From positions 1-45,128 of the forward strand of contig JAOZHB010000012.1 of assembly GCA_026015035.1 (NCBI GenBank): a stretch of DNA of 45,128 nucleotides, in the 5' to 3' direction. Each line of letters opens with the position of its first letter. Position 1 is the stretch's first letter. The notes beneath the pieces are model-generated. The model was given only the letters and a program-made list of their open reading frames with translations. It was not told the origin of the DNA and ran no database searches. A program made the position numbers and the translations under genes. This DNA is from Candidatus Bathyarchaeota archaeon. Lineage in GTDB: Archaea; Thermoproteota; Bathyarchaeia; RBG-16-48-13; GCA-020355125. This document shows positions 3,197 through 24,947 of this stretch, piece by piece.

Positions 3197-4372
3197 TTAT
3201 CGCACTACCCGTCCAGCCTTAATTACGTTAACGGGTACTAACAGTTTGTTGATTGTTCGCTGCGCGCGTATCGAACTAAGGTTGTCCCACAACGTGTGCT
3301 TTTCCTCGTCAAGCCGAAAGATCGCGACGTCTCCTTCAGCGCCAGGTTTCAAGGTTCCGATGCTCTCACTCAAACCCAGCACCGCTGCCGGATTGATGGT
3401 GCTCCGCTCGATCGCCTCGGATAGTGAAAGGCCTACGTGAAGAAATTTTGAAAGGACCGTGGGCAGATCGTACACGATTGTATCAACGGAGTACTTGGTT
3501 AGGTCGGAGCTGATGGTGTCTGGTAGAAACCATTGCCGTATGGCCTTCTCAGCTGTATCCCAGCTAAACTGGTATCGTCCATGACCGATGTCAAAGAGGA
3601 TTCCTCTCTTTCTAGCCTCCATGACCTCGCTGAGAAGGCTATCACTTCGGTCAAGGATACTGCTTGGTGAGTGAAAAGAGGGGTGAGGCGGATGAAAACT
3701 GTGGGTGATGATGTCGCCTCCCTCTAAAACCTTTAAAACTTCTGGAAACGGGAGGAAATCGGGTAGAGGATCCGGGCCAAAAATGTGAAGCATCAGGGGA
3801 ACTCTGGCGGTTCGAGCCACTTCTTTGGCTAATCGGAGGTAGTGAGAGCTGTAGCTCCCTGTCCGCCTCTCTCCTAATCGGAGTTTGATGCCCATGATGA
3901 CATCTTTATTTTCCTTCGCCACTTGAACCGCAGTACTAAAATCGAGGTGTCGAAGATCCCCCAGCTCCACCCCCAATTTGCAGGCGCTGAGAAAGCATAG
4001 AATTCGCGTCTGAGAGTCACTCATGATAAATCGTCTGAGGCCTAGAAAGTTCATGGAGCCCGACGAACCGCCATCCACCACGGTTGTAACTCCTTTCAAG
4101 AGGCAGTGAACATCCGCGTTTGCGCCACTATCCGAAGCGTCTCAGTACACATGTGCGTGAAGATCGATCAGTCCCGGCGTCACAATCATACCAGTGGCAT
4201 CAAGTACCTCCTTTGCGCTTCCATTGATCCGAGACGAAACCAACATCACCTTCCCATTCGATATCGCGATATCCTGGATGTCTTCGATTCCTTGAGAAGG
4301 ATCCACCAAGAATCCATGTTTCACGAGTAGATCGTAGGTCACTTTCAATCTCCTCGAAAATCTTGTTACCAA
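3197..4372 (-). pseudogene. Dihydroorotase-like amidohydrolase/deacetylase (COG3964-like) interrupted by one in-frame TGA at 4142-4144
   Basis: N-terminal piece ends PGLIDLHAHVY. The same frame continues after TGA as DASDSGANADVHCLLKGVTTVVDGGSSGSMNFLGLRRFIM to a normal C-terminus. 4372 and 4099 are in the same frame (difference 273). Confidence 0.8.
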
Positions 4373-4601
4373 TAAATGTGTTACAGGCTTTTATTCTTCT
4401 CCACAACGTGGAAAACAGCTAGCTATAGTGTATTGACGCGAGCAATAGGGAGTCCTCCATGTCCCATCCAACGAGCTAGCTAGCTGAAGGCTGAAGTCGT
4501 TATAAACAGCTGGTACGTGATACTCCAGCTGAAGATGTATACGCAGGGAGGCATATAGTGAAGCGGGATAAGCTGAATAATCGATGAAACGGTGCTATTC
4601 C

Positions 4602-8633: not shown

Positions 8634-8818
8634 TTTAGCTAACGGAGGCTTTGTATGGGAAAGAAGCATGGAATGTTGATAGATTTCGAGAAGATTCCCT
8701 TAGCGCGCGCGCTAGCTTCTTTAAACATTCATTAATAAGTCTGGTACCTATATCAGCTATCTAACTCACTAGATGAAAGAGTGTACGAGTCCCAGGCCTT
8801 TAACTTTTTACCTATAGG

Positions 8819-10047: not shown

Positions 10048-10380
10048 TTATGCACTCTTTAGGAATAATTGATATACATTCTTTTAATATACTAACATAA
10101 CAGGTATTAAAGACTTGTTAGTGCTTGAAAAAAGGGACTGATTAGATACACCACAGAATAAAAATCTCTCTACTGCCTTAAACGACATCGGTGATGTGTG
10201 CGGATTAAACTTTAAACCCCATACCCAAACGTTTATCATACAAAACGCGCTGAACGTAAAGAGATTTAGCGTTCTAGGGCACGCTCTAGCTTACTTCTTT
10301 TTTCAAATATTTTTCTTATTCCTGATTGGTCTAGCGCGCGCCCCACTTCAATGCGCGACATATTTTAAAGTTATCCAAAT

Positions 10381-10535
10381 ATTAATGCGTAGTATAACCG
10401 CGTCATTTCCCTGTCAAACGGGCCGTTTTCTGGGCTCTTTTAAGGAAATACGCCGCGATTTACGTTCCTTCCCAGAAAATTATTTTCAATTGAACCCCCT
10501 TTTACACGACGAAAAATGAGAGAGCCCCGTCCCCT
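10381..10535 (+). repeat. Intergenic repeat element, copy A (candidate ncRNA or MITE-like element)
   Basis: Shares GTCATTTCCC, GCCGTTTT, AATACGCCGC, ATTTACG, TTTTCAATT and TTTTACACGA-N-GAAAAATG, in the same order, with the minus strand of 24483-24632. Confidence 0.75.
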
Positions 10536-10622
10536 GTATATATTGTAAAGGTCGCCCACGTTGTGGACGGCCATGCCGTGTATACCGCTTGCGATGCATC
10601 CCCCTACGATGGTGATTGAATC

Positions 10623-10637
10623 GATCGCGCGCGCGCG
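10623..10637. repeat. Alternating (CG)n tract
   Basis: atcgcgcgcgcgcgaga in intergenic DNA. Confidence 0.8.
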
Positions 10638-10818
10638 AGACCGTGTTTGACGACTGTGAGGTTCACTCATTATGAACATAGGATGTTGATCGTTTTATGA
10701 TAGGGCCTTGTGACCGTATACAGCCACCTGCTCCTGTCAATCCACGAGCATTGAACGTCGCGAAAAAGATGTTGTATGCAATCCATAGGACAACTGTTTT
10801 TAATTACATGATAATACA

Positions 10819-12096
10819 ATGATAGATAGAGGCGAGAATGAAGTGCCCTCGGTAAACATGAAAGTGGATGAACACTACGATCGAACGATTCAAATCAATT
10901 TTCCAAAGACCTGGGACGTCAGCGTGGTGAGGATGGCTGGACACAGCGCGCCCGCTCTAACCGATGAGCAGATCCAAGACGCATTAGACCACCCCATCGG
11001 AAGCCCAAGCATACAGGAGCTAGCGAAGGGAAAAACGGGGAAGATCGTCGTTACCTGCGATGATCTTGAGAGGCCGACGCCCGCCTACAGGGTCTTCCCT
11101 TTCATCATGAAGGAACTGAATAAGGCTGGTATCTCGGACAGTCAAATCTTCATTATGGGAGCCTATGGACTTCATGCGGCTATGACTGCAGATTCCTATG
11201 GAAGAAAGGTCGGCTGGGACATGGTTCGAAGGTTCGACTGCGTCAACCACAACGCGTTCAAGAATCACCAGAACCTGGGGAAGACAAGCCGTGGGACACC
11301 TCTCCTGGTGGATTCGGAATTTGCGAAAGCTGACCTGAGAATAGTCGTATGCGGTATTAAAAAACACCCCTTAGCTGGTGCTGGAGGCGCGGGAAAACAT
11401 GTAGTTCCCGGAGTAGCGTCCTTTGACACCATAGCTTATAACCACCAGGTAATAGGAAGGACGGCAGAGAGAGGGATTTGGAAGATCAAGGGGAACGCCG
11501 CGAGAGAGGACATGCAAGAGGCTGGGAGGATGGCGGATGTCAATATAGTCGTGAACTGCTGCTATAATGACAACCGGGATGTGGTGGGTCTTTTTGTCGG
11601 TGACTTGGACGATGCTTGGCATGAGGCCGTGAAATATAGTTATGACCTTCATTCAACTAAAGTCAGCAACAAGAAGGCGGATGTTGTCGTAGTGAACGGC
11701 TATCTACAGGCCCAACAGGGGATTGATTGGTGGCCTGCAAGTAGCACGCTAGGAGAGGGGGGTACAGCGGTAGGGATACACCAGTACACTCCAGGGTGGC
11801 GTTTAACTCACTACTCAGTCGAAAGTTTCGGTTCAGGATCGGACGGTTACTGGGCTAGGATGGAGGGGTATCCACGAAGATTGTGGCCCGTTAAGCAGGC
11901 TGGAAAAATCATGGTTTGGAGCGAGAAGATAGTAAAAAGGAACATGCTGAGACTCGCTGAGAAGGTGGAATGGATACCTGAGTGGCAGGGAATAATGAAA
12001 CAACTCAAAGCAGTCCACGGAGAAAACGCAACAGCCATGGTGTTCCCCTGTTCCAGGGTACAATTCGACCCGAGTAAAACACCTCTAGTTCTCTAG
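10819..12096 (+). CDS. LarA-like (DUF2088) nickel-pincer racemase/epimerase family protein
   Basis: VVTCDDLERPTP, MGAYGLHAAMT and VVCGIKKHPLAGAGGAGKHVVPGV match the LarA fold, including His and Lys at the expected positions. Confidence 0.8.
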   Translation: MIDRGENEVPSVNMKVDEHYDRTIQINFPKTWDVSVVRMAGHSAPALTDEQIQDALDHPIGSPSIQELAKGKTGKIVVTCDDLERPTPAYRVFPFIMKELNKAGISDSQIFIMGAYGLHAAMTADSYGRKVGWDMVRRFDCVNHNAFKNHQNLGKTSRGTPLLVDSEFAKADLRIVVCGIKKHPLAGAGGAGKHVVPGVASFDTIAYNHQVIGRTAERGIWKIKGNAAREDMQEAGRMADVNIVVNCCYNDNRDVVGLFVGDLDDAWHEAVKYSYDLHSTKVSNKKADVVVVNGYLQAQQGIDWWPASSTLGEGGTAVGIHQYTPGWRLTHYSVESFGSGSDGYWARMEGYPRRLWPVKQAGKIMVWSEKIVKRNMLRLAEKVEWIPEWQGIMKQLKAVHGENATAMVFPCSRVQFDPSKTPLVL

Positions 12097-24337: not shown

Positions 24338-24373
24338 CCCTTCAAGTCGACTGAGGATCTAGCTAGCTATTTT

Positions 24374-24417
24374 GAATTTACACATTACTATAAAAAATGC
24401 CTAAAAAGTGTAAATTC
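24374..24417. promoter_or_regulatory. 10-bp perfect inverted repeat GAATTTACAC / GTGTAAATTC with 24-nt spacer
   Basis: Read directly at 24374-24383 and 24408-24417. Confidence 0.6.
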
Positions 24418-24482
24418 TAGGGCCTTACAGTGTAAGTTCCCGAAATTTGTTGTTATCTAGCTAGGCCACTGCTGTAAGCACC

Positions 24483-24632
24483 GGTGGACCGGGCCTCTCC
24501 CATTTTTCCTCGTGTAAAAAGCGATAAATTGAAAAAAAAATTCCAGGAATGAGCGTAAATTGCGGCGTATTGCGTCAAAGGAGCCTATAAAACGGCTCAT
24601 GGCAGGGGAAATGACACGGATAATGCATGCAT
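24483..24632 (-). repeat. Intergenic repeat element, copy B (candidate ncRNA or MITE-like element)
   Basis: Reverse complement aligns along its length with 10381-10535 (see copy A). Confidence 0.75.
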
Positions 24633-24645
24633 TATGCCATGTAAA

Positions 24646-24659
24646 AGCGCGCGCGCGCC
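24646..24659. repeat. Alternating (CG)n tract flanking copy B
   Basis: aagcgcgcgcgcgcctg in intergenic DNA. Confidence 0.8.
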
Positions 24660-24947
24660 TGAAATGCCGGGAGCGTCCGAGGAGCAGCGGGTCCAAGTCG
24701 TCGACCTGTTGAATACAGTGATGAGACGGGTCGACGCAGGCTTCATCAGCTCCCAGCCCATGACCCTCTCAGCGGCTTCGAGTCATGCCGATCGCATCCC
24801 AACGCATTCGAAGCTAGCTAGCTTTAGCTATAAAACTCATAGAAAAAGTGTAAAATGAAATGTTTAGCTAGCTAAGCTCGAAGCTCGTGTAGACTCGCGG
24901 ACTTCCTGCTTTCACGTCCTTTTATGTGTCACTGAAGCTACCTCACC

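Follow-up and report, generated by a model that had tools for sequence, protein, structure and literature searches.

The two similar intergenic sequences found in the 45,128-nt stretch of Bathyarchaeia DNA analysed here (the window) belong to a dispersed repeat that we take, with a probability of about 0.7, to be a non-coding, non-autonomous, MITE-like mobile DNA element confined to one Bathyarchaeia genus. It is a new family of an already known kind of element. The dispersal of its copies, their modular anatomy, their truncation and the presence of an ancestral copy at the same site in two species are all directly visible in the genomes compared; no RNA fold, no conserved reading frame and no preferred orientation was seen.

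Copies A and B belong to a dispersed repeat family

The likeness between a plus-strand sequence (copy A) and a minus-strand one (copy B), to which an earlier note on this DNA had drawn attention, is borne out: copy A aligns with the reverse strand at copy B with 76% identity over 148 bp (E 2.6e-25), and the ordered blocks and single-base indels described there are both seen in the sequences. The block common to both, which forms the ~143-bp core of the repeat, lies at window positions 10383-10524 (+) and 24494-24634 (-). Copy A had been placed from 10333 onwards, which is too far upstream: homology begins at 10383, and 10333-10382, including a GCGCGCGC-type run, is unshared. The repeat at copy A has lost its left arm and runs on to about 10639, within an alternative 3' arm. 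Copy B is the fuller of the two, the module map showing a nearly full element at 24359-24874 on the minus strand. The parts of the two copies are as follows.

10383..10524, + strand: copy A, core (positions 1-142 of the model), its left arm missing (118.6 bits with cmsearch model R1; module map)
10525..10561, + strand: diverged 3' arm joint of copy A, CCCCGTCCCCTGTATATATTG... (alignment with other copies)
10562..10639, + strand: alternative 3' arm "RY" of copy A, common to six further copies (module map)
24865..24874, - strand: 5' terminal TAGCTAGCTA tract of copy B (sequence and tract scan)
24817..24873, - strand: 5' terminal module "TIRb" of copy B (module map)
24637..24812, - strand: copy B, 5' arm (ARM5), which includes a GCGCGCGCGCGC run at around 24647-24658 (module map; tract scan)
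24494..24634, - strand: core of copy B (cmsearch model R1, 104.8 bits)
24460..24492, - strand: 3' arm (ARM3) of copy B (module map)
24359..24452, - strand: 3' terminal module "R1" of copy B, with a GCTAGCTA tract at its end (right-end query match, 86 bits; module map)

Beyond copy A, positions 10819-12096 hold a gene for a nickel-pincer racemase-like protein (Lar_N), whose best NCBIfam matches, to the malate racemase LarAH6 and to LarAH5, are both far below the cut-offs.

The earlier note had proposed a search for further copies in the genome and its relatives, and these proved numerous at home. With copies A and B as BLASTN queries the block recurs far above chance, giving 34 strong matches in the genome to which the window belongs, a Bathyarchaeia MAG of 146 contigs and 2.06 Mb (88% complete, 7% contaminated), and profile search raises the number to about 38, dispersed singly at roughly one per 54 kb. 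Several contigs start or stop inside copies, as repeats cause assemblies to do. The one sister species of the same genus that was examined holds about 17 copies by profile search, and when one genome from each species was scanned with a degenerate pattern, it was the only positive (Candidatus Bathyarchaeota isolate CSMAG_1002) besides the window's own genome. A DNA search of 59 other relatives found nothing except one 21-base chance match, and a sequence-profile search of up to 119 gave only matches with E of 0.001-0.006 per genome, none of them convincing and none placing the core family in other genera of the same family. The weak model matches in G002, G006, G010, G012, G014, G016 and G085 were taken as chance, dozens of genomes having been searched; four of them were aligned, and none resembled a copy. 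Nor was the core matched in viral contigs, searched with the exact pattern only, or in the phages and plasmids searched. The family is, as far as is visible, genus-restricted, and a literature search found no description of such a repeat in Bathyarchaeia.

The full element is modular

Full copies measure 460-690 bp and follow a fixed order of modules, established from alignments with flanks and the module map: an end, a 5' arm of ~170 bp, the ~143-bp core, a 3' arm and a second end. The left end is one of three modules, TIRa (AGCTAGCTAGACTCCTCCTTTTACCATTTTTCTA...), TIRb or TIR0, and the right end is R1; some copies have instead an alternative 3' arm, RY, which in one copy precedes an inverted TIRa. 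Conservation is highest in the core, with 80% mean column identity. Truncation is heavy, most copies being fragments.

Inverted terminal repeats of ~120 bp are present on some copies only. The right ends of two copies (L004 and L011) are the inverted left ends of eight others, with 73-80% identity over 112-130 bp; among the copies none was found with both long inverted repeats. In copies ending in R1 the inverted similarity of the two ends lies mostly in the GCTAGCTAG tract, is weak beyond it and, once the tract is masked, remains significant in few. Most ends of the element are in fact GCTAGCTAG tracts; since both ends abut the same palindromic sequence, a target-site duplication cannot be told apart from the tract itself.

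Class II cores and copies at shared sites

A core model also recovered, initially in the sister species, a second set of copies (class II), which consist of a diverged core with neither arms nor ends. With a model of these, about six more were recovered in the window's own genome, with E down to 7e-24. The first part of the class II core comprises three 11-bp direct repeats, GTTATNCGTAG: self-identity is 57% at a spacing of 11, against ~28% at other spacings. The same period persists as a weaker trace in the cores of the other copies (class I), and two hybrids join a class II core to a class I 3' part. Class II copies lie beside unrelated genes, in all arrangements and both orientations.

At some sites the two species can be compared directly. 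One class I copy (L008/L062) occupies the same site in both, between flanks that are 89-92% identical, with identities of 77% in the 5' arm, 83% in the core and 85% in the 3' arm; its core is thus more diverged than the surrounding DNA. In the core tree the copies cluster mostly by species, and a tree that joins the L008/L062 pair is mildly disfavoured (AU p 0.044). This could reflect conversion between copies, at which it hints weakly. Two class II pairs also occupy the same sites in both species. In one the core is 86% identical and the 3' flank 72%; in the other the core, at 79% against 74-77%, is no better conserved than its flank. Beside a class II core (L216 compared with L213), the sister species lacks ~520 bp directly adjoining it, a segment in which the 5' part of a zinc-ribbon-like gene lies. 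Synteny with the sister species yielded no clean empty site, contigs having ended or synteny having broken at the sites tested.

What the core may be

Copies A and B had been described as non-coding and as either a structured RNA or a small mobile repeat, matching no known family. Their non-coding character and lack of a known family hold within the searches done: any given frame of the core is open in fewer than half of the copies, the 5' arm is open in almost none, and no frame is conserved. A 107-aa ORF at 10196-10519 was considered as a possible protein-coding gene and rejected, having no Pfam match and lying over core frames that are not kept; overlaps of copies with short called ORFs are no evidence of coding, the gene calls being simple longest-ORF calls. 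Between the two natures proposed, the results favour the mobile repeat, with its many genus-restricted intergenic copies, inverted ends on some of them, truncations and lack of an ORF. A structured non-coding RNA gene duplicated around the genome would account for the core being the part best conserved and occurring alone as class II, and for its ending near a run of T. The 5-bp stem reported for copies A and B can indeed form in both, but it is not a feature of the family: no pair has changed on both sides in compensation, and the second pair is absent in 25 of the 37 copies. RNAalifold predicts no consensus pairs on either strand, whether for class I cores (36-37 copies) or for the 13 of class II, and shuffled alignments do equally well; folds of single copies on both strands are no better than those of shuffled sequence (z -1.3 to +0.75), and there is no Rfam match in the window at the gathering threshold. 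Set beside these results, the divergence of the L008/L062 core beyond that of its flanks leaves an RNA gene very unlikely, and a conserved fold is already largely refuted.

Other explanations leave the core as DNA. It might be a site selected by the host, such as an array for a regulator or a replication or chromosome protein, to which arms and ends were added later as a mobile carrier. The solitary, armless class II cores with their triple repeats, their persistence at two shared sites and the surplus conservation of one of these pairs speak for such a site; the lack of extra conservation in the other pair, the diversity of neighbouring genes and mixed orientations in both classes, and the absence of the core from other genera of the family make it unlikely on balance. 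The copies might instead be remnants of a virus or plasmid family that had integrated, for example of its origin or attachment region. Iterated 11-bp repeats beside an A/T run, reminiscent of iterons, and the genus-restricted distribution suggest this, but with the core unmatched in viral contigs (exact pattern only), phages and plasmids, and copies that stand singly and have no viral genes noticed adjoining them, we give it little credence, as little as the RNA gene. Least probable of all, and close to excluded, is that the copies are ordinary 3' or 5' gene-flanking signals (promoters or terminators) common to many genes. They are intergenic, as such signals would be, but class I copies occur in convergent, divergent and co-directional gaps alike, in both orientations and at varied distances from genes, and the long arms and ends that they have in common extend well past the length of any signal.

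How the repeat might have spread

The mobile-element reading implies a mobilising enzyme. Copies would have spread by means of a transposase supplied in trans and acting on the element ends, and the element now appears largely decayed, mostly to fragments. Since the core, with 11-bp direct repeats in its 5' part, keeps its sequence but no pairing, it is probably as double-stranded DNA that it works; most likely the mobilising protein, or a protein of the host, would bind there at an array of sites. Recognition of ends does not explain the class II cores as they stand, having neither arms nor ends.

Queries with the ends in the two MAGs, both incomplete, matched only copies or fragments and no autonomous relative. 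Each MAG has a single DDE_Tnp_1 gene, the surroundings of which show no convincing match to the repeat. In the window's own MAG the only match to this family belongs to a complete insertion sequence, L237:1051-2066, with a transposase and 24-bp perfect inverted ends TTAATTAATGCTTTGTGGAGTAAC. It was rejected as the partner of the repeat, its ends being unrelated to those of the latter.

Palindromic tracts in intergenic DNA

Runs of (GCTA)n or (GC)n are found at the ends of the element and at several joints within it. Within the window GCTAGCTA is counted 25 times against 1.35 expected (~19-fold) and GCGCGCGC 18 times against 0.43 (~40-fold), and over 352 kb of the same genome the density of the tracts between genes is 22-37 times that within called genes (22-30 times for (GCTA)n). 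Intergenic (GCTA)n tracts lie at window positions 4418, 4475, 5885, 6143, 7661, 8711, 9372, 9732, 12115, 12140, 14350, 23333, 24362, 24813, 24867 and others, and intergenic GCGCGC runs at 8703, 10334, 10627 and 24647; some of the latter coincide with joints inside repeat copies at which sequence was lost or replaced. On both strands together AGCTAGCTAG is counted 349 times in the genome that holds the window, 162 times in the sister species (G001), 146 times in G003, which belongs to another genus of the family, and 51 times in G017, from another family; most other Bathyarchaeia compared are near control levels. An exclusive association of the tracts with the repeat element was rejected on the count for G003, which lacks the element.

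Three breaks in synteny with the sister species fall at tracts. Breaks at CTAGCTAG tracts were observed at L131:13986, at L130:18945 and at 4224 and 4873 of L197 (G001:C49); between two such tracts G001 carries ~620 bp, including a small reading frame, in place of the 6 kb of G000, the window's own genome. That every GCTAGCTAG tract is a rearrangement joint was considered and not borne out, tracts in conserved intergenic DNA being seen to come and go by point changes. A speculative combination, which we think quite unlikely though a little less so than an RNA gene, would make the core with its three 11-bp repeats a host-maintained site (for chromosome organisation or replication, for instance) spread by a mobile carrier of its own, and would make the GCTAGCTAG tracts bounding that carrier the intergenic break and rejoin sites of the genus. 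More puzzling is the modular breakage at GCTAGCTAG and GCGCGCGC tracts, which merits a separate study.

Significance and comparison with known systems

Bathyarchaeia are a large uncultured group, in one genus of which the repeat family marks the turnover of intergenic DNA. Its core model and ends give a sequence handle with which, in closed genomes, the mobilising enzyme might be traced.

Iteron arrays of plasmid and viral origins consist of short direct repeats, one helical turn apart, beside an A/T-rich run. The class II core resembles them by description in its short 11-bp direct repeats next to such a run; it differs in that just three units are clear, no replication gene lies next to it, and its copies are many and scattered.

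Closer counterparts are the MITEs of prokaryotes, among them QMITE1 and QMITE2 of Coxiella and Chunjie of Geobacter (reviewed in PMC10969869). Among the features that mark MITEs, small size, lack of coding capacity, multiple copies and dispersal are found in the present repeat, with its ~38 copies and no conserved frame, and the likeness extends to tens of intergenic copies per lineage, a length of a few hundred bp, many truncated copies without ends, and diverged copies of the same family. The longest Bathyarchaeia copies, however, exceed the 50-500 bp given for MITEs (PMC10969869), and the repeat is unlike them in having two alternative 3' arms and in being best conserved in its interior core, not at its ends. 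Archaeal MITEs have been listed for Sulfolobus, Haloquadratum and Halobacterium (PMC10969869), and the Bathyarchaeia repeat is like these in kind, by description and not by sequence, as a small non-autonomous repeat of archaeal genomes.
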